IMG/VR virus record: IMGVR_UViG_3300044627_000458
Coordinates: 1-30,472 of that record
DNA length: 30,472 nt
Direction: 5' to 3' (one strand)
Source: a virus
A model generated the notes under the pieces. It was not told the DNA's origin. It saw nothing but the letters and a program-made list of their open reading frames with translations, and made no database searches. This document shows, piece by piece, positions 1-28,949 of the stretch. The translations under genes were made by a program, and so were the position numbers. Numbering within the stretch: the stretch's first letter is position 1; the number at the start of each line of letters is the position of its first letter.

Positions 1-127
1 AGATTTCCATAACACTTGGGAAGCGATTACAATGGGTTATTCTGCCTTTGATAATTTGCCTCCTTCATTTGCTGATTTCTTAATTGCTCACGTAGCCGCT
101 AAAGTTGCTGAAAAAACAGAACAAAAC
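1..127. repeat. Left copy of 127-bp terminal overlap
   Basis: Bases 1-127 are identical to 30346-30472. The capsid reading frame continues without a break from the right copy into position 128. This shows that the molecule was assembled as a circle and that the overlap is redundant. A length of exactly 127 is a common assembler k-mer size, so I read it as an assembly overlap and not a biological terminal repeat. Confidence 0.95.
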
Positions 128-676
128 ATTTGGAAAGGTGCTACTGCTACTGCAGGTGAATTTGATGGATTTGTAACTTTGGCTACTGCTGATGCTACAG
201 TTCTTGACGTTGCTTCTCCTGCTGCAGGTGGTGTTACTTCAGGTAACGTAATTGCTGAAATGGGCAAATTAGTAGATTTAATTCCTGCTGCATTGTACGG
301 AAAAGAAGATTTGTACTTATACGTTTCACAATCAGTTGCTCGTGATTATGTACGTGCTTTAGGTGGTTTTGGTGCAAGTGGCTTAGGTGCTAACGGTACT
401 AACGCAATGGGTACTCAATGGTGGAATAATGGTTCACTTTCTTTTGACGGAATCAAAGTATTCGTAGCAGAAGGAATGGCTACAGATTATATGATGGCTG
501 CACAAAAATCAAACTTATATTTCGGAACAGGTTTGTTATCAGACCAAAACGAAGTTCAATTAATTGATATGTCGCCAATCGATGGTTCACAAAATGTAAG
601 AGTTGTAATGCGTTTTACTGCTGTAGTTCAATACGGAATTGGTAGTGAAATTGTATTGTACACTCCTGCTGCATAA
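2..676 (+). CDS. Major capsid protein, C-terminal part (continues from 30077-30472)
   Basis: This is the 3' part of the capsid gene that starts at 30077. Joined across the circle junction it encodes 314 residues. An apparent ATG at 32 is internal, because the frame is open back to position 2 and continues the frame of the other end. The protein is rich in Ala, Gly and Thr, has no membrane segment, and ends just before a strong terminator, as expected for a highly expressed structural gene. It follows protease-like and scaffold-like genes, the usual place for a major capsid protein. The HK97-type fold is inferred from context and size; I see no diagnostic motif. Confidence 0.75.
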   Translation, partial: DFHNTWEAITMGYSAFDNLPPSFADFLIAHVAAKVAEKTEQNIWKGATATAGEFDGFVTLATADATVLDVASPAAGGVTSGNVIAEMGKLVDLIPAALYGKEDLYLYVSQSVARDYVRALGGFGASGLGANGTNAMGTQWWNNGSLSFDGIKVFVAEGMATDYMMAAQKSNLYFGTGLLSDQNEVQLIDMSPIDGSQNVRVVMRFTAVVQYGIGSEIVLYTPAA

Positions 677-694
677 TCATAATAAATAAACAAG

Positions 695-728
695 AAAAGG
701 TGGTGCAATAAACATCACCTTTTTTTTT
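695..728 (+). terminator. Intrinsic terminator after the capsid gene
   Basis: An 11-bp stem (695-705 with 713-723, one G-U pair) closes a 7-base loop and runs into a T tract to 728. It lies 19 bases after the capsid stop codon and probably sets the capsid mRNA level apart from the genes downstream. Confidence 0.85.
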
Positions 729-791
729 ATTAATGCTTCAAACAAAAAAGATAATTAATTGATTATCAATAACTTATAAAAAAATTTCAAA

Positions 792-1319
792 ATGGCTTGT
801 GATATAACACTCGGAAGATTAGAACCCTGTAAATCAGCAGTAGGCGGTTTAAAAGCTGTTTATTTTGTGAATTGGGGTGATGCAACAGGATACACGTACA
901 ACGCAACAAATACAGATGTAATTGACACCGTTACAGGTACACCTTCAGCATATAAATACGAATTAAAAGGAACGAATAGTTTTGACCAAACTATAACTTC
1001 TTCACGTGAAAACGGAACTACATTTTTTGACCAAAGTGTAAAACTTCAGTTGAAAAGTTTAGATATTGTTACACATAAACAAATCAAATTGCTTGCTTAT
1101 GGTAGACCACAAGTGATTGTAGAAGATAACAACGGAAACTTATTCTATTGTGGTTTAGAACACGGAATGGAAGTTACAGGTGGAACTATTGTTTCAGGAA
1201 CTGTAATGGGCGATTTATCAGGATACACATTAGAGTTGAAAGGAATGGAACGTGTAGCAGCTAATTTTATCGGTGATGATTTAGCAGGCGCAGGATTTAC
1301 TATTGTTTTAGGTAGTTAA
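792..1319 (+). CDS. Putative major tail tube protein
   Basis: The product has 175 residues, is rich in beta-prone Thr, Val and Gly, and has no membrane segment or enzyme motif. The C-terminal half (GGTIVSGTVMGDLSGYTLEL, residues about 131-150) has the alternating pattern typical of beta-barrel tail tube proteins. The gene is a single unit between two terminators, directly after the capsid gene, which suggests high expression as a repetitive virion protein. It could instead be a head decoration protein. The family assignment rests on general resemblance and context, with no catalytic signature to confirm it. Confidence 0.5.
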   Translation: MACDITLGRLEPCKSAVGGLKAVYFVNWGDATGYTYNATNTDVIDTVTGTPSAYKYELKGTNSFDQTITSSRENGTTFFDQSVKLQLKSLDIVTHKQIKLLAYGRPQVIVEDNNGNLFYCGLEHGMEVTGGTIVSGTVMGDLSGYTLELKGMERVAANFIGDDLAGAGFTIVLGS

Positions 1320-1341
1320 TTTATTCTTACAATTTAATTAA

Positions 1342-1365
1342 GGGTGGCATTAGCTACCCTTTTTT
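1342..1365 (+). terminator. Intrinsic terminator
   Basis: A 7-bp stem (1342-1348 with 1353-1359, one G-U pair) with loop ATTA is followed by six T residues. The stem GGGTGGC/GCTACCC closely resembles the terminators at 9312, 14816 and 20936. Confidence 0.85.
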
Positions 1366-1367
1366 AT

Positions 1368-1412
1368 TTTAAAACAATTTCGACTTTTATTTATTATTTA
1401 ATAAAAAATAGA
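1368..1412 (+). promoter_or_regulatory. Conserved late leader or promoter, copy 1
   Basis: This stretch, directly after a terminator and ending at the ATG of the 1413 gene, aligns without gaps to 20987-21031. Shared blocks are TTTAA, ACAATTTC, TTATTATT and AATAAAAAA, with the same distance to the start codon. It is likely a promoter with an untranslated leader for a structural gene unit. It lacks a TAnnTTTG box, so it may depend on another factor. Confidence 0.45.
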
Positions 1413-1754
1413 ATGATAGTTTTAAAGGATTCTACATACACACAAAATTTCAAGTTTATGCCACGTAGTTGTAATATTACTTCTATGGTGTTTAAAGATG
1501 AATTAGCAAATGTAGAACACGAAATAGAAAACCCTGTACTTGTAACAGAAAAGTATTGGATGCAATTTCAAGAAGATTTAACGTTTGAATTTCTAATAGA
1601 TGGGCGTACATATAACTTAACTTGTTTTGATGGCGCAAACGTCGTTTATAGAGATAAAATAATGTGTACAAATCAATCTATTTCTACATACACAATTAAT
1701 CAGGGTGTTTACGTTGCACACGCTACATCTAATGAATTTATAATATATGACTAA
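1413..1754 (+). CDS. Hypothetical protein before portal
   Basis: The product has 113 residues from the ATG at 1413. A longer reading from GTG 1344 would start inside a terminator stem and is rejected. The protein is soluble, with alternating hydrophobic and polar segments suggesting beta structure, and has Cys at a few positions (about 20, 71 and 85). I do not recognise a family. It overlaps the portal start by 8 bases, so it is probably translationally coupled to it and may be a minor virion component. Confidence 0.75.
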   Translation: MIVLKDSTYTQNFKFMPRSCNITSMVFKDELANVEHEIENPVLVTEKYWMQFQEDLTFEFLIDGRTYNLTCFDGANVVYRDKIMCTNQSISTYTINQGVYVAHATSNEFIIYD

Positions 1755-3543
1755 TAATATTTCAGTTGTTAATTTATCGGCTTATACATCGCCTGAAATT
1801 CGAGAAAGTAAAAGAAATAATTACATCGAATACGGAAACGATAACAATTACTTTCAGTACTTAATTGATAGATTCCTTTATAGTACTTCAAATGGTGCTA
1901 TTATTACCGGTATTACTAATATGATATACGGTAAAGGATTAGGTGCATTAGATGCTAATAGAAAACCTAACGAGTACGCACAAATGGTGTCTATCATTAA
2001 ACCTGACTGTTTAAAGAAAGTAGCATTAGAACGCAAGTTATTAGGAATGGCTGCAATGCAAGTTGTAATGGAAAAGAATTTAGTTAAATCTATTTCACAT
2101 TTTCCTATGCATACTTTACGTGCTGAAAAATGCAACGATAAAGGCGAAATTGAAAATTGGTATTACTTCCCTGATTGGACAAAAAAGAAGCCAAGCGAAG
2201 AACCTAAAAAGATTCCTGCTTTTGGTTTTGGTAATGGAAACGAAGTAGAAATTTATATTATTAAACCATACGTTTCAGGGTTTCACTATTATACACCTAT
2301 AGATTATTCAGGCGCTTTGCCTTATGCTTATTTAGAGGAATCAATAGGCGATTACCTTATTAACGATATTGCCAACGGATTTAGCGGTACTAAAGTTATC
2401 AATTTCAACAATGGTATTCCTTCTGAAGAAATGCGTGATAGAATCAAACGTGATGTTCTTTCTAAGGTAACAGGCGCACAAGGTGAAAAAGTAATTATAG
2501 CTTTTAATGCCAACGCTGAATCTAAAACTACAGTAGATGATTTACCTTTAACTGATGCACCTGCACATTACGAGTACTTAAGCAAAGAATGTTTTGAAAA
2601 ACTAATCGTAGGACACCGTGTAACTTCACCTATGCTTTTAGGAGTACGTACAGGTGATGGTGGATTAGGAAACAATGCAGATGAAATTAAAACTGCTACT
2701 TTATTGTTTGACAATATTGTAATTAAACCATACCAAGAAGAAATTTGTTCAGCATTAGATACAATTTTAGCAGTAAATAGTATTTCTTTAAAATTATACT
2801 TTAGAACTATTCAACCATTAGAATTTACTGATTTAGAAAACACTACAACACAAGAACAAGTAGCTGAAGAAACAGGTTTAAGTTCACACACTTGTTTAGC
2901 TTCTGAATCTATAGCTGATGAATTAATAAACAAAGGCGAAGTATTAGGTGATGAATGGTTATTGATTGATGAAACAGAAGTAGATTACGATTTAGAAGAA
3001 GAATTAGATTTTGAATTAGAATCTATAAATAAAAAAGAAGATAAATCACTACTATCTAAAGTATGGAATTTTGTTAGTACAGGAACTGCAAGGCCAAACA
3101 TTAAAAGTCCTGAGCAAGATAAAGTAATTGATGGTGTAAACTTTATTACACGTTACGTTTATAGCGGTAATTTAACAGGCGAAAGAGAATTTTGCAATAA
3201 AATGTTAAATGCAGATAAAGTATATCGTAAAGAAGATATTATAGCTATGAAAAATCAAAAAGTAAATCCGGGCTTTGGTGTTAAAGGTTCTGATTTTGTG
3301 GATGTTTGGTTATACAAAGGCGGGCCGAGATGCGAACATAAATGGTTACGTAGAACGTATGCAAATTTAGAAGGTGTAAAAGTTGACCCTACAAGTGGAA
3401 CTGCTAAACCATTAAGCAATAGAATAGCTGAAAAGTACGGATATAGAATTAGAAACGAAAAGGAAGTATCTATGAAGCCTGCTGATATGCCAACAAAAGG
3501 TTACACACAAGAATATTGGGATAAAATGGGATTTAAAAACTAA
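1747..3543 (+). CDS. Portal protein with C-terminal extension
   Basis: The product has 598 residues. The first part (about 1-430) fits a portal: mixed alpha/beta with motifs such as GITNMIYGKGLG near residue 55 and a helix-rich stretch near TSPMLLGVRTGDGGLG (about 294-309), followed by an acidic linker (about 410-440). Portals form the dodecameric DNA gate at one head vertex. Residues about 450-598 form a separate domain with Cys, His and Trp residues (YKGGPRCEHKWLRRTY) and a C-terminal PADMPTKGYTQEYWDKMGF tail. Its place resembles that of MuF-type fusions seen after other portals, but I cannot match the family. The next gene is a connector, which supports the call. Confidence 0.75.
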   Translation: MTNNISVVNLSAYTSPEIRESKRNNYIEYGNDNNYFQYLIDRFLYSTSNGAIITGITNMIYGKGLGALDANRKPNEYAQMVSIIKPDCLKKVALERKLLGMAAMQVVMEKNLVKSISHFPMHTLRAEKCNDKGEIENWYYFPDWTKKKPSEEPKKIPAFGFGNGNEVEIYIIKPYVSGFHYYTPIDYSGALPYAYLEESIGDYLINDIANGFSGTKVINFNNGIPSEEMRDRIKRDVLSKVTGAQGEKVIIAFNANAESKTTVDDLPLTDAPAHYEYLSKECFEKLIVGHRVTSPMLLGVRTGDGGLGNNADEIKTATLLFDNIVIKPYQEEICSALDTILAVNSISLKLYFRTIQPLEFTDLENTTTQEQVAEETGLSSHTCLASESIADELINKGEVLGDEWLLIDETEVDYDLEEELDFELESINKKEDKSLLSKVWNFVSTGTARPNIKSPEQDKVIDGVNFITRYVYSGNLTGEREFCNKMLNADKVYRKEDIIAMKNQKVNPGFGVKGSDFVDVWLYKGGPRCEHKWLRRTYANLEGVKVDPTSGTAKPLSNRIAEKYGYRIRNEKEVSMKPADMPTKGYTQEYWDKMGFKN

Positions 3544-18747: not shown

Positions 18748-19053
18748 ATGGAAGATAGAAGAAAATTTAACGGTGGTAATAAAAACGCAGGCCGTAAATC
18801 AAAAGTGGAAGAAGAAAAAGTAAACAACATCTTTTTAAAAGCATTAGGTGAACTTTACAATAAAGAAACTGAAGAAGAAACAAAGATTGAATTTGTTAAA
18901 ACTACTTTAATGGATTCACAACGTGGACAGTTGTTTATAGCTGAACACATATTCGGCAAACCAAAAGAAATTATAGAGGCTACACACAACGTAAATGATT
19001 TTAATATAAAAGACATCTTCAAAGTTGGGAATAGCAATAAATCAGAAATATAA
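18748..19053 (+). CDS. Putative terminase small subunit
   Basis: The product has 101 residues. The start (MEDRRKFNGGNKNAGRKSKV) has the NGG-N-AGRK pattern seen at the N-terminus of phage small terminases and related DNA-binding proteins, followed by a helical region. It directly precedes and overlaps the large terminase gene by 29 bases. Small terminase recognises the phage DNA for packaging. The family is inferred from this motif and place. Confidence 0.65.
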   Translation: MEDRRKFNGGNKNAGRKSKVEEEKVNNIFLKALGELYNKETEEETKIEFVKTTLMDSQRGQLFIAEHIFGKPKEIIEATHNVNDFNIKDIFKVGNSNKSEI

Positions 19054-20233
19054 TTTACTTGGTTCAGATAGTAGATACTTTGTAATAACAGGAGGAAGGG
19101 GAAGTGGTAAATCATATTCCCTTAATTCCTTTTTACTATTGCTTACTTATGAATCAGGCCACGTTATATTATTCACACGTTACACATTAACTTCTGCAAA
19201 CGTTTCTATTATTCCTGAGTTTATAGATAAAATTGAAAGAGCTGATTTAAGCAGCGACTTTTATATAACTAAAGATGAAATAGTAAATTTAAAAACAGGT
19301 TCTAAGATTCTATTTAAAGGTATTAAAACAAGTAGTGGTACACAAACTGCTTCGCTTAAATCTTTAGCAGGTGTTACTACTTGGGTATTAGATGAAGCAG
19401 AAGAATTAACAGATGAAGAAACATTTGAAAAGATTGATTTTAGTATAAGAACAAAAGGAATACACAATAGAGTTTTATTAGTGTTAAATCCTGCAACAAA
19501 AGAACACTTCATTTATAAAAAGTTCTTTGAAGATAAAGGTGTACAAGCAGGAAGCAATTTAATAAAAGGTGATACTACATACATACACACTACATACTTA
19601 GACAACATAGAAAATCTATCTGAATCATTTATAACACAGATAGAGAATATAAAACAACGTAGACCGGAAAAGTATAATCATCAGATATTAGGTGGATGGA
19701 TGGACAAAGCAGAAGGAGTTATATTTACTAATTGGACAATAGGCGAATACAAACAAATAGGTAAATCTATCTTTGGTCAGGATTACGGATTTGCAGCAGA
19801 TGAATCAACACTATTAGAATGCAATATAGATACATCTAACAAACGAATATACATTAACGAAAGGTTTTATCTAAAAGGTTTAACAACATCGCAGATATAC
19901 AGTTTAAACAAGCAGCACGCAAACGATGCTTTAATAGTTGCTGATTCGGCAGAACCAAGATTGATTAGTGAACTACAAACATTAGGTTTGAATATTGTAC
20001 CTGCAGTTAAAGGTCCTGATTCAGTAACGTATGGCATTAGTATTTTACAAGATTATGATTTGATAGTATCACCTGAATCTATTAATTTAATCAGGGAACT
20101 AAATAACTATTGTTGGTTGGAAAAGAAATCTAAAACTCCACAAGATGCACACAACCATTTATTAGACCCATTACGTTATTGCGTTACTTACCAATTAGAA
20201 AATAAAAACAAGGGTAATTACTTTGTTTACTAA
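19025..20233 (+). CDS. terL: Terminase large subunit
   Basis: The product has 402 residues. Packaging ATPase: Walker A GGRGSGKS (23-30), Walker B WVLDEAEEL with Asp123 and Glu124, and the coupling motif LVLNPAT (about 153-159). The C-terminal nuclease has GQDYGFAADEST with the first acid, VADSAEP and the DAHNHLLDPLRY motif, as in Terminase_3 enzymes. It cuts and pumps DNA into the head. The start is unusual: the frame has a stop at 19007 and no ATG before the P-loop, so translation probably begins at TTG 19025, 29 bases inside the small-subunit gene. Confidence 0.95.
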   Translation: MGIAINQKYNLLGSDSRYFVITGGRGSGKSYSLNSFLLLLTYESGHVILFTRYTLTSANVSIIPEFIDKIERADLSSDFYITKDEIVNLKTGSKILFKGIKTSSGTQTASLKSLAGVTTWVLDEAEELTDEETFEKIDFSIRTKGIHNRVLLVLNPATKEHFIYKKFFEDKGVQAGSNLIKGDTTYIHTTYLDNIENLSESFITQIENIKQRRPEKYNHQILGGWMDKAEGVIFTNWTIGEYKQIGKSIFGQDYGFAADESTLLECNIDTSNKRIYINERFYLKGLTTSQIYSLNKQHANDALIVADSAEPRLISELQTLGLNIVPAVKGPDSVTYGISILQDYDLIVSPESINLIRELNNYCWLEKKSKTPQDAHNHLLDPLRYCVTYQLENKNKGNYFVY

Positions 20234-21031: not shown

Positions 21032-21709
21032 ATGAAGTTAGAAATTTCTATACCTACATCTTTAAAAGAAATAACATTAGAACAGTACCAAAGATTTACA
21101 AGTATAGCTAAATCAAATCCTGAAGGTGATTTTTTGCAGCACAAGATGATTGAAATATTTTGTGGTTTATCGTTAAAAGAAATATCACTAATGAAGTTAA
21201 AGGATATTAACGCTATAACAAACAAGTTAGGCGAAATGTTCAATAACAACTATTCGTTAATTCAAACATTTAAACACAAAGGTTTAGAGTTTGGTTTTAT
21301 TCCTAATTTAGATGAAATAAGTTTAGGTGAGTATACCGATTTAGAAACATATATTTCTGATTGGGATAATATGCACAAAGCAATGGCAGTTTTATACAGG
21401 CCTGTAATAAATAAGCTAAACAAGAAATACCTAATAGAAGAATACAAAGGTTCAGCAGAATATTCAGAAGCATTATTACAAATGCCTTTAGATGTAGCTT
21501 TAGGTGCAATGGTTTTTTTTTATCATTTAGGCAACGCATTGTTGATGTCTACCCTGAATTATTTGGAGACGGACAAAGCATTGATGGATTTAGCAGAGAA
21601 GCACAGTTTGGCAGAAAATGGAGTTGGTATAGTTCCTACTATGGTCTTGCTCAGGGAGACGTTAGAAGATTTGATGAAGTTTCAAAACTTCGGCTTACAA
21701 CCTGTTTAA
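21032..21709 (+). CDS. Tail assembly chaperone, zero-frame product (G-like)
   Basis: The product has 225 residues, acidic and mainly helical (LKEITLEQYQRFTSIAKSNP, about 11-30). Its place, a few genes before the tape measure, and its size match tail assembly chaperones, which hold the tape measure during tail assembly. Codons 162-163 lie in a run of nine T. After it the zero frame continues for 62 residues (YHLGNALLMSTLNYLETDKA at first). Codon use there changes to TTG, GAG, ACG and CTC, unlike the rest of the gene, which is a sign of constraint from a second frame. Confidence 0.75.
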   Translation: MKLEISIPTSLKEITLEQYQRFTSIAKSNPEGDFLQHKMIEIFCGLSLKEISLMKLKDINAITNKLGEMFNNNYSLIQTFKHKGLEFGFIPNLDEISLGEYTDLETYISDWDNMHKAMAVLYRPVINKLNKKYLIEEYKGSAEYSEALLQMPLDVALGAMVFFYHLGNALLMSTLNYLETDKALMDLAEKHSLAENGVGIVPTMVLLRETLEDLMKFQNFGLQPV

Positions 21710-21783
21710 CTTATTTAACATTTGAAAAAGAAAAAAACGAATTAGAAGCACAACAACTAAGAAGAAATGAAAACATATTATAA
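21032..21783 (+). CDS. Tail assembly chaperone, -1 frameshift fusion (GT-like)
   Basis: The first 163 residues equal the zero-frame product. A -1 slip on T_TTT_TTT joins an 87-codon frame that begins LSFRQRIVDVYPELFGDGQS and contains FGRKWSWYSSYYGLAQGDVR and KLRLTTCLTYLTFEKEKNEL, giving 250 residues. The frame has no stop to 21781. The W-rich part looks like the T-type domain of tail chaperones. The stop overlaps the next ATG (21767) by 17 bases, as genes here usually do. This resembles lambda gpG/gpGT in logic, but the overlapping codons are unusually many. Confidence 0.7.
21513..21521 (+). other. Slippery site for -1 frameshift
   Basis: Nine T residues include the heptamer T_TTT_TTT in the correct zero-frame phase (21514-21520). 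tRNA-Phe could re-pair fully in the -1 frame. Transcriptional slippage on the T run is an alternative. I see no clear stimulatory stem downstream. Confidence 0.65.
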
Positions 21784-22228
21784 AGTTACAGAAGCATTAC
21801 GTGATTCACTACTACAGGATGGTATAGTAAACAACTGTTCTACAGGTGATATTTTCAACGTAGATTTAAACAAGCGTACTATATTCCCTTTAGCACACGT
21901 TATTGTAAATAGTGTAGCAGAATCAGCAACAGGTAATACAAACCTATTTAACGTTTCTGTGTTACTTATGGATGTTTGCGATATTTCACCTGATGAATCT
22001 ACTGATTTGTGGTTAGATAACGATAACGAACAAGATATATTTAATACACAATTTGAAATAGGTAAACGATTTGTAGAATCAATGCGTAGGGGTGATTTAT
22101 ACACGTTAGGTTATCAGTTAAACGGTAATGCAAATTACGAAGCGTTTAGTGATAGGTTTGAAAATAAGTTAGTAGGATGGACTATTACATTTAATGTAGA
22201 AGCAGCAAACGATACAACTATCTGCTAA
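21767..22228 (+). CDS. Tail completion / neck-like protein
   Basis: The product has 153 residues with an alpha/beta pattern (YYKVTEALRDSLLQDGIVNN at the start, LVGWTITFNVEAANDTTIC at the end). The closing WTITFN-type strand and position before an HK97 gp10-like gene suggest a tail terminator or tail completion protein. It overlaps the next gene by one base (TAATG). Family inferred from context. Confidence 0.5.
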   Translation: MKTYYKVTEALRDSLLQDGIVNNCSTGDIFNVDLNKRTIFPLAHVIVNSVAESATGNTNLFNVSVLLMDVCDISPDESTDLWLDNDNEQDIFNTQFEIGKRFVESMRRGDLYTLGYQLNGNANYEAFSDRFENKLVGWTITFNVEAANDTTIC

Positions 22229-26251: not shown

Positions 26252-26402
26252 ACAAATATTAGAACTTCTGCAATGCACAGAGCATTACGGACAAAGCGAA
26301 TTAATAGAAATTGCTAAAGGTAAATACGAACTACCTTCAACATTTAAAAAAGGATATACACAAATTAAAAGGGAAATGAAATGGCTGAAAAGTACGAAAT
26401 AG
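26244..26402 (+). CDS. Small hypothetical protein before tape measure
   Basis: The product has 52 residues, basic (MLKQILELLQCTEHYGQSEL at first). It overlaps the upstream gene by 8 bases and the tape measure start by 22. The overlaps are typical of the phage. It could be a small tail assembly factor; no family recognised. Confidence 0.55.
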   Translation: MLKQILELLQCTEHYGQSELIEIAKGKYELPSTFKKGYTQIKREMKWLKSTK

Positions 26403-28174
26403 ATTTAGAGTTAAAAAGCAATTTTGATAAGGTTGTTAAAGATGTAAACGACCTTAAAAAAGGTATGCAAAATGTCCAAAAGGAAACTGAAGATATTGGC
26501 AAATCAGCAAAGAACGCAGAAAAGGGTGTTAAATCTATTGGTGAAGGATTTAAAGCGATAGGTTTATCTATTAAAGCAATGGGTATAGGTTTGCTTCTTG
26601 AAGCTTTTGCTATACTTAAAGATGTGTTTTCACAAAATCAAGTAGTAGCTGATAAATTTGCAACTGCTTTAGGTGCTTTATCTAAAGTATTTAATGATTT
26701 AGTTAATTTTTTAATTAAAAATATTCCTGTTGTTGTAGATTTCTTTAAAGATATATTTGAGAATCCACAAAAACACATTGAAAAATTAGGAACTTTAATT
26801 CAAGAAAATTTAATTGAACGCTTTAATTCGTTATTAAAAACCGCAGGTTATTTAGGCGAAGCATTAGGAAACTTGTTTGAAGGTAAATTTGCAGCCGCAG
26901 TTGAATCAGTTAAAAAAGCAGGTAAAGAATCAATAGATGTTTTTACAGGTGTAAACAATTCGGTTGATAGAGCAGGAGAAGCTATCGATAAAATTGGTGG
27001 TGCAATTAGTAAATATGGTAAAGAAACTTGGAACGCGGCAGCAGCAAATGTAGCATTACAAAATGCAGCTTTAATTGCAGCAGCACAGCAAGCTAAATTA
27101 GTTGAACAATATGATAGACAAGCAGAGGCACAAAGACAAATACGTGACAATGATTTATTAAGTATTGAAGATAGAATAACTGCAAATAATAAATTAAAAG
27201 ATGTTTTAGACAAACAAGAAAAAGCAATGATTTCTGCGGCTGATTTACAATTGCAAGCAGCACAAAACACTTATGCTAATAACAAATCAATAGAAAACCA
27301 AGTAGCTTTAATTAACGCGCAAGCAAACATAGAGGGTGTACTTGCACAGGTTAAAGGCTTAAAAAGTGAACAACTTTCAAATGAAATTTCTTTAACCAAA
27401 GAATTAGTTGCTTTAAAACAAACTGATGTTGATGCTACTGCTGCATTAGCTTTAGAAAATAAAAAGTTTAACGCTTCTTTAAATGATGATAATATAGCAA
27501 GATTAAATGCAGAAAGAGAAATACTACTTGCTGAACAAGAAACAGAAAGACAAAGATTACAATTAAAAATCGATGGTGCGGCAGAAGGTACACAAGCAAG
27601 GGTAGATGCTGAAATAGAATACAAAACAAGAATGCAAGAAATCGGAAACGAAATTAAGCAAAATGAAAAAGATAATGCTGATGCAAGTAAAGAAATAGAA
27701 AAAGAAAAAGCTGCAGCACGTGATGCTTATTTAACTGCGGGAAGTAATGCTTTAAAAAATGCTGCTGCTTTGGCAGGCGAAGCTACAGATGCAGGTAAAG
27801 GATTAGCTATTGCGGCTACTACAATAGATACGTATCAATCAGCAGTTAGTTCTTATAAATCGTTATCAGGTATTCCTGTAGTCGGGCCTGCATTAGGTGC
27901 TGCTGCTGCGGGTGTAGCTATTGCAACGGGTTTAATGACTGTAAAAAATATATTAGCAGTTAAAGTTCCCGGTGGTAGTAGTAGTGGTGGTGGTGCTCCC
28001 GCTACAGGTGCTGCTCCTAATTTTAACGTAGTAGGTGCTACAGGTGTTAATCAATTAGCAGGTGCAATTAGCAATAGAGAACAACAACCTGTCCAAGCGT
28101 ATGTAGTAGCAAATAACGTAACTACTGCGCAAGGTTTAGATAGAAATATAATTCGTTCAGCTACATTAGGATAA
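26381..28174 (+). CDS. Tape measure protein
   Basis: The product has 597 residues, largely helical. The N-terminus is coiled-coil (NFDKVVKDVNDLKKGMQNVQ), then hydrophobic stretches (AIGLSIKAMGIGLLLEAF at about 60-77), repeated Ala/Gln/Lys heptads in the middle, an Ala/Gly hydrophobic part (GIPVVGPALGAAAAGVAIAT) and a Gly/Ser linker near the end. Tape measure proteins set tail length; at about 1.5 angstrom per residue this predicts a tail of about 90 nm. The protein fits a short siphovirus tail. Confidence 0.85.
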   Translation: MAEKYEIDLELKSNFDKVVKDVNDLKKGMQNVQKETEDIGKSAKNAEKGVKSIGEGFKAIGLSIKAMGIGLLLEAFAILKDVFSQNQVVADKFATALGALSKVFNDLVNFLIKNIPVVVDFFKDIFENPQKHIEKLGTLIQENLIERFNSLLKTAGYLGEALGNLFEGKFAAAVESVKKAGKESIDVFTGVNNSVDRAGEAIDKIGGAISKYGKETWNAAAANVALQNAALIAAAQQAKLVEQYDRQAEAQRQIRDNDLLSIEDRITANNKLKDVLDKQEKAMISAADLQLQAAQNTYANNKSIENQVALINAQANIEGVLAQVKGLKSEQLSNEISLTKELVALKQTDVDATAALALENKKFNASLNDDNIARLNAEREILLAEQETERQRLQLKIDGAAEGTQARVDAEIEYKTRMQEIGNEIKQNEKDNADASKEIEKEKAAARDAYLTAGSNALKNAAALAGEATDAGKGLAIAATTIDTYQSAVSSYKSLSGIPVVGPALGAAAAGVAIATGLMTVKNILAVKVPGGSSSGGGAPATGAAPNFNVVGATGVNQLAGAISNREQQPVQAYVVANNVTTAQGLDRNIIRSATLG

Positions 28175-28370
28175 ATAAAAACTATTAAAAAACATATTAC
28201 TATAAATAAAAACTTGCGCTGTTAAGTATTGATTTTAAAGGGATTTTTAATTTAATAAACAAACTAAAAAAAAACAACAGGTAATATATAAAATAAAGAA
28301 AGTGCTTTAAAACGCAAAAAAAGCTATTTAAAACAAAATCAATAAAATTTAATTTTAAAATAAAAACAAA
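28175..28370. other. AT-rich intergenic region before the head genes
   Basis: This 196-base stretch holds no open frame of coding character. It is very A-rich and probably carries the promoter and leader of the head operon. I find no TAnnTTTG box and no copy of the late leader; a weak GCTTT/AAAGC hairpin without a T tract lies near 28303-28323. Confidence 0.5.
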
Positions 28371-28949
28371 ATGCGAATAGTAGAATTAATATTAGATGAT
28401 GATAAAGCTACAGGTGTAGAAGCAATTTCAATTGTAGAAAATCCTGCAATAGAAGAAAACTTTGTAGCACTAAATAAAGAAATAGAAATTAAACTTGCTG
28501 AAGTAGATTCTGATAAAAGAATTTTAATGGGTGCTGCATTAATACCTAATAAAAATATTTACAGAAGAAGCGGTGATGATGAATACTATATTTTCTTTTC
28601 AAAAGATACAGTAAAAAAAGCAAGTGAGTTATATCTAATGAATGGGTTTCAAAATAATGCAACTTTAGAACATAGCACAAAGTTAAAAGATTTATCAGTA
28701 GTTGAATCTTGGATAGTAGAAAGTGAAGTAGACAAATCACGTAACTATGGTTTAGAAATGCCTATTGGAACTTGGATGGTTTCTATGAAAGTAAACAACG
28801 AAGATATTTGGCAGGAGTTTGTTAAAACTAAAAAAGTTAAAGGTTTCAGCATTGAAGGATACTTCAGCGACAAAGTAGAAATGAACTTTCAAAAAGCTAA
28901 AGATGATGAATTGATTGAAAAAATTAAACAACTACTAAAAGATGAGTAA
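28371..28949 (+). CDS. Prohead protease, XkdF-like
   Basis: The product has 192 residues. The start has the XkdF pattern (GVEAISIVENPAIEENF, 15-31), then a conserved block with LIPNKNIYRR, and the catalytic candidates His101 (LEHSTK) and Ser160 (KGFSIEGYF). Enzymes of this family cut scaffold and capsid N-termini during head maturation. It heads the group protease, small protein, scaffold-like, capsid. It overlaps the next gene by 8 bases. The catalytic assignment is by analogy. Confidence 0.85.
   Translation: MRIVELILDDDKATGVEAISIVENPAIEENFVALNKEIEIKLAEVDSDKRILMGAALIPNKNIYRRSGDDEYYIFFSKDTVKKASELYLMNGFQNNATLEHSTKLKDLSVVESWIVESEVDKSRNYGLEMPIGTWMVSMKVNNEDIWQEFVKTKKVKGFSIEGYFSDKVEMNFQKAKDDELIEKIKQLLKDE

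Follow-up and report, generated by a model that had tools for sequence, protein, structure and literature searches.

A probable two-product phage gene of the tail-assembly-chaperone type with a proposed frame change on an invariant nine-T run and two overlapping conserved C-termini

The DNA under study, referred to below as the window, was the complete 30,472-bp viral record IMGVR_UViG_3300044627_000458. It very probably contains a two-product gene of the tail-assembly-chaperone type in which slippage occurs on a run of nine T residues (T9). According to the proposed mechanism, this gene of a siphovirus-like Bacteroidota phage would yield two proteins. Normal reading would give a product of 225 aa, 62 of them beyond T9, and a fraction of expression would shift to the -1 frame at T9 and give a 250-aa product with a different C-terminal domain of 87 residues. 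Because neither frame stops soon after the run, two conserved C-termini would be specified by the same ~190 nt; the doubly coded stretch in relatives would extend to as many as 88 codons, nearly the whole -1 domain. The identity of the slipping machine, the ratio of the two products and their role as chaperones are inferred from the features described below, the coordinates of which are given in Table 1.

Table 1. Positions in the window of the proposed two-product gene, its parts and its neighbours
Feature	Position	Strand	Remarks
Slip site, nine-T run (T9)	21513..21521	+	Zero frame GTT TTT TTT TAT; heptamer T_TTT_TTT in phase
Zero-frame ORF, gpG-like, 225 aa	21032..21709	+	Residues 1-163 form the shared N-terminal domain, which ends at the slip; stop TAA at 21707-21709
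Dual-coded stretch, 62 zero-frame codons under the -1 frame	21521..21706	+	Wobble-site change reduced; omega <1 in both frames; stop avoidance
-1-frame extension, 87 aa plus stop	21520..21783	+	Residues 1-163 plus the extension would form the 250-aa gpGT-like product
Next gene, 153 aa, phrog_30964 (unknown)	21767..22228	+	Shares its first 17 nt with the end of the -1 frame
Tape-measure-like protein, 597 aa, presumed client	26381..28174	+	phrog_1538 tail length tape measure, E 1.8e-4; phrog_21537 virion structural, 4.6e-23
Terminase large subunit, upstream neighbour	19025..20233	+	

The initial annotation had described an in-phase T_TTT_TTT within a nine-T run, followed by 62 open codons in the zero frame and 87 in the -1 frame, and the coordinates agreed with this description. 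The zero-frame tail of the window protein includes ETLEDLMKFQNFGLQPV, and the -1 domain includes WSWYSSYYGLAQGDVR. The codon usage of the zero frame was said to switch to GAG, TTG, ACG and CTC, and codon counts confirmed that the switch is real. TTG accounted for 7 of the 62 codons of the overlap vs 46 of 5845 in other genes, GAG for 3 vs 25, ACG for 2 vs 38 and CTC for 1 vs 3; GC3 in the window rose from 0.24 to 0.48 in the overlap. The openness of the two frames was compared with chance by fixing the protein of one frame and redrawing synonymous codons from the phage's own usage. With the -1 protein of the window kept constant, 0.025% of draws left the zero frame open over all 62 codons; in the converse test, with the zero-frame protein kept constant, 0.9% left the -1 frame open. 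The longest -1 run in the 17 other window genes tested was 57 codons, and none reached 62. The dual openness of the window frames is thus far beyond chance.

Relatives were gathered by searches with each frame and then with distant relatives as queries. The zero-frame domain was found at 335 loci, and the -1 domain was located in the -1 frame at 333 of them. The two remaining loci were a contig end without the -1 domain and locus L103, in which the frames are fused. Both frames recurred in 333 related contigs down to ~28% protein identity, and the conserved core of the -1 domain was WxWY...GD...F...L. At 331 loci, the in-phase run consisted of nine (T9, 322 loci) or ten Ts (T10, 9 loci), and it was nowhere shorter; the T10 loci were mostly due to the next codon being TTC or TTG. 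At one locus (L326), a stop upstream interrupts the gene, yet the T9 run is present. The initial annotation had proposed a programmed shift to the -1 frame at this run with two alternative C-termini, to be abandoned if the run or the -1 frame was not conserved in homologues or if the run contained a sequencing error. Conservation in the 333 contigs supported the proposal and removed both objections. In L103 (478-1239), T10 replaces T9 and the fusion product is a single ORF; the locus is either a naturally occurring mutant, with slippage yielding the short form, or the result of misassembly.

The overlap was 62 codons long at 133 of 332 loci, at least 50 codons at 326 and at least 79 codons at 117, with a maximum of 88. 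In the longest class, the zero-frame stop lies three codons ahead of the end of the -1 frame. Six loci had overlaps of fewer than 50 codons; two of these (L214 and L332) were rejected as short overlaps since both run into contig ends.

The only named phage relatives found were Nonlabens phages P12024S and P12024L, which carry T9 and the -1 domain with an overlap of just 25 codons. The products P12024S_38 and P12024S_39, together with phrog_32199, are direct homologues: both frames and a T9 run in phase are present in P12024S, with an overlap of 25 codons unlike the 62 of the window, and the annotation lists two hypothetical genes, unrelated to each other, at this place. For this region (L156:12001-12695), the sequence indicates one gene with a T9 frame change. 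Five loci came from Bacteroidota genome assemblies, and the hosts are therefore considered to be Bacteroidota. One of the five, in a 319-kb scaffold of Flagellimonas onchidii (L160, NZ_SRXX01000003), has T9 and a 70-codon overlap and is probably a prophage; some relatives may thus be prophages.

Two routes would lead to the same fusion protein: a tenth U would be added to the mRNA by RNA polymerase, or the ribosome would move by -1 on U_UUU_UUU. The site was found to have an X_XXY_YYZ heptamer in phase, as is characteristic of ribosomal sites, and also a conserved A/T homopolymer of approximately nine with long runs avoided elsewhere, as is characteristic of transcriptional slippage sites. When relatives were clustered at 80% identity (58 clusters), the slip Phe codons were TTT in 116 of 116 cases, and 23% of the other Phe codons of the same genes were TTC. 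Replacement of the eighth T by C would be silent in both frames (TTT to TTC in the zero frame and TTA to CTA in the -1 frame) and was found in 0 of the 58 clusters. For E. coli ribosomes, slippage on U_UU.C was reported to be no less efficient than on U_UU.U (PMC4066793).

The occurrence of homopolymers was determined in 341 other genes of these contigs. Runs of at least nine As were observed 4 times vs 25.5 expected, T8 runs 3 times vs 13.3 and T7 in heptamer phase 23 times vs 38.5, i.e., at 60% of expectation. Run avoidance is therefore length-dependent and unspecific to the ribosomal phase; replication slippage could be an added source of the avoidance of long runs. In the coding DNA of all loci, A runs of at least nine and T runs of at least eight were strongly depleted. 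Avoidance of this kind has been discussed in connection with transcriptional slippage at runs of nine As or Ts, a known slip length for polymerase (PMC1088944), and for A7/U7 in all frames in E. coli (PMC4066793).

Possible stimulators of ribosomal slippage, which are common at such sites but dispensable, were also considered. Downstream RNA structure was not in excess: the mean fold z-score of 54 diverse sequences was -0.13, no lower than elsewhere in the gene, and a conserved downstream RNA stimulator was rejected on this basis. An upstream SD-like element was likewise rejected, its motif being present in just 7 of the 58 clusters. Lambda-type chaperone frameshifts often occur without stimulators, and sites of this type need no known one. 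Therefore, the absence of stimulators does not exclude the ribosome.

These data have to be weighed against purely ribosomal -1 frameshifting on T_TTT_TTT, with the flanking Ts kept just by the encoded amino acids. Every relative that has a run keeps the heptamer in phase, the outer Ts fall where V/L/I and Y/W/F/L codons force T, and known chaperones use ribosomal slip sites, namely T_TTT_TTG in P2 and UUUUUUC in SPP1 (PMC6316719). Nevertheless, the eighth T is never C, even though TTC would be silent in both frames and equally slippery, in-phase T7 heptamers persist in ordinary genes at 60% of expectation, and neither a conserved structure nor an SD-like stimulator accompanies the site. A purely ribosomal origin is accordingly a serious contender that falls somewhat short of an even chance. 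On sequence grounds, RNA-polymerase slippage appears slightly ahead of ribosomal -1 frameshifting, and both may contribute. The full proposal, that the phage family sets the ratio of two chaperone forms by polymerase slippage on the invariant T9, with up to 88 codons encoding two selected C-termini, lies only just below an even chance. Thus, of the lambda-like logic suggested initially, the frame change and the two C-termini stand, but slipping by the ribosome is not established, considering the invariable TTT, the run avoidance and the lack of a conserved stimulator.

Selection on the overlap was then estimated. Diversity at zero-frame codon positions 1, 2 and 3 (42 sequences) was 0.29, 0.21 and 0.52 upstream and 0.23, 0.33 and 0.30 in the overlap. 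Substitutions in independent close pairs were classed by their effect in both frames, and omega values were obtained with a multiplicative model and outside synonymous baselines, the upstream synonymous rate being used as the baseline; simple NN/SN and NN/NS ratios were dropped because they were confounded by codon position. An earlier set of pairs required equal zero-frame length, which biased stop counts; the final set was free of this requirement, and the omegas were similar. In the 62-codon class (73 pairs), omega for the zero and -1 frames was 0.26 and 0.47 in codons 0-20, 0.54 and 0.29 in codons 20-40, and 0.37 and 0.29 in codons 40-60. In the long class (40 pairs), the corresponding values were 0.23 and 0.35 in codons 0-20, 0.44 and 0.21 in codons 20-40, 0.45 and 0.13 in codons 40-60, and 0.46 and 0.11 in codons 60-88. 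Thus, the zero frame dominates up to codon ~20 and the -1 frame thereafter.

The strength of zero-frame constraint beyond this point depended on the baseline. The synonymous rate of the -1-only region was 0.61 of the upstream rate, and zero-frame omega in codons 20-40, calculated from this ratio, was near 0.9 under the -1-only baseline. Constraint on the zero frame is thus firm for the first ~20 codons and weaker and baseline-dependent further on. Mutual constraint of the two frames, as suggested in the initial annotation, was confirmed insofar as both are under purifying selection, but it is uneven along the overlap.

The zero frame past ~20 codons might be passively open and functionless, with only the first ~20 codons dual-coded. 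This would agree with the omega values of up to 0.54 in codons 20-40, or near 0.9 with the other baseline, with the drop in confidence of the AlphaFold model after residue ~180 and with the Inhavirus relatives, in which the zero-frame stop is located 16-25 codons after the slip. However, the zero frame is stop-free to codon 50 at nearly all loci, and two of the six exceptions are contig ends. In addition, given the -1 protein, an open zero frame from codon 20 onwards had a probability of 0.0035 for the window and of less than 1/4000 for the 88-codon class, which argues for some use of the far tail. A functionless tail is consequently quite possible, but we consider it rather less probable than a used one.

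The -1 frame of the window is open from 21415 and is without any ATG, GTG or TTG; therefore, a frame change at the T run is needed to reach it. Initiation of the -1 ORF as a separate gene, by an internal start or by re-initiation, is suggested by the annotation of P12024S, which has its own 55-codon ORF there, but it is highly improbable, since only 2 of the 58 clusters have an ATG no later than codon 5 past the slip and the conserved LxFRxR start of the -1 domain directly abuts the T run. For the window, separate initiation was rejected unless a non-standard start codon is used, as no standard one is present. Finally, the probability that the gene is broken, or that its layout stems from faulty sequencing or assembly, is negligible: homopolymers are error-prone and L103 has T10 with a fused frame, but the layout recurred in 333 contigs of diverse sample origin and both frames were under purifying selection, which ruled out an error behind the window arrangement.

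The identity of the gene was examined by profile and structure comparisons. The window protein matched Pfam PF10109 (Phage_TAC_7) with an E-value of 0.15, below the cut-off, and phrog_166 'tail protein' was matched at 7e-4 in the best of three relatives tested. No similarity to lambda gpG, HK97 gp13 or P2 gpE was found by hhalign, no match was found in a PDB fold search, and no named chaperone family matched above the threshold. The BFVD matches were all unnamed phage proteins, including a 191-aa protein of Flavobacterium phage 6H that is gp10 by its length; the profile also aligned with phage 6H gp10 (E 4.5e-5). This gp10 is a distant homologue of the zero-frame domain, and downstream of it, an unannotated -1-frame stretch that includes YFASFQKYLTSATIF and, further on, WEILIRMYDITKRSLDEEAAYKKLEKK was found on the minus strand (L337, NC_021867, 10048-10351). 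The transition into this stretch needs more than one shift or reflects a hidden sequencing error. In the AF2 model of the zero-frame product (pLDDT 80.7), the slip lies inside helix 153-180. The AlphaFold models predict a confident N-terminal domain ending in the helix that holds the slip; the zero frame would extend this helix, and the -1 frame would form a linker followed by further helices.

The tape-measure-like gene lies downstream on the same strand, with four genes intervening. Structural genes were found at both ends of the record, with the tape measure and a head maturation protease at 26381-28949 and capsid-like and portal genes at 32-3543; therefore, the record probably represents a circularly permuted genome with its cut between head genes. 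As in gpG/gpGT systems, the gene is small, its product would be lengthened by a -1 shift to an overlapping ORF, and the slippery site is conserved in phase. The assignment as a tail chaperone made in the initial annotation is thus probable by gene size, position and weak family matches, with membership unproven by sequence or fold; the window gene probably works like a gpG/gpGT chaperone. If the analogy with lambda gpG/gpGT holds, the short form would be abundant and coat the tape-measure protein, and the long form would be rare and recruit the tail-tube protein.

The gene shares with lambda gpG/gpGT the use of one gene, a shared N-terminus, a -1 shift and an alternative C-terminal domain. Lambda differs in that its slip site is GGGAAAG, the zero frame ends 5 codons after the slip and the gene adjoins the tape-measure gene; there is also no profile similarity. 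The same logic applies to P2 gpE/gpE+E', with slip site T_TTT_TTG, and to HK97 gp13/14, neither of which has profile similarity to the window gene. The zero frame continues past the slip for 6 codons in P2 and 8 in TP901-1. In SPP1 17.5/17.5*, the zero-frame overlap is 61 codons (173 aa, of which 112 are shared), as predicted from sequence only (PMC6316719). SPP1 is comparable by layout, with a -1 change at a T-rich site in a Bacillus phage chaperone gene upstream of the tape measure; it differs in its slip site, UUUUUUC vs T9 here, and in a far longer -1 extension, 297 aa in all. An overlap of 62 codons, initially considered unusual, is therefore unusual in comparison with lambda, P2 and TP901-1 but not with SPP1.

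Polymerase slippage at a run of nine occurs in Shigella mxiE. To our knowledge, there is no case of it in a phage tail chaperone, and none was found in the open-access literature searched. The present site resembles the 9A/9T sites of T. thermophilus dnaX and IS elements in being a homopolymer of nine in run-depleted coding DNA (PMC1088944).

No report on the present phage family, the hosts of which are Flavobacteria-like bacteria, was found in the open-access literature searched. Because the overlap in SPP1 is 61 codons, overlap length alone is not new. What is new is the comparative evidence of dual coding, the class with overlaps of 79-88 codons, where dual coding covers nearly the full -1 domain, and a T9 pattern suggestive of polymerase slippage. 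For this conserved gene of the structural module, the C-terminal domain is absent from current annotations. The gpG/gpGT ratio is a classic example of quantitative control by recoding, and the family, with its 58 clusters, is large enough for both frames of a long overlap to be traced comparatively. These findings indicate that two C-termini can share almost all their DNA, and the family allows a direct test of whether the host RNA polymerase, instead of the ribosome, may set the chaperone ratio.
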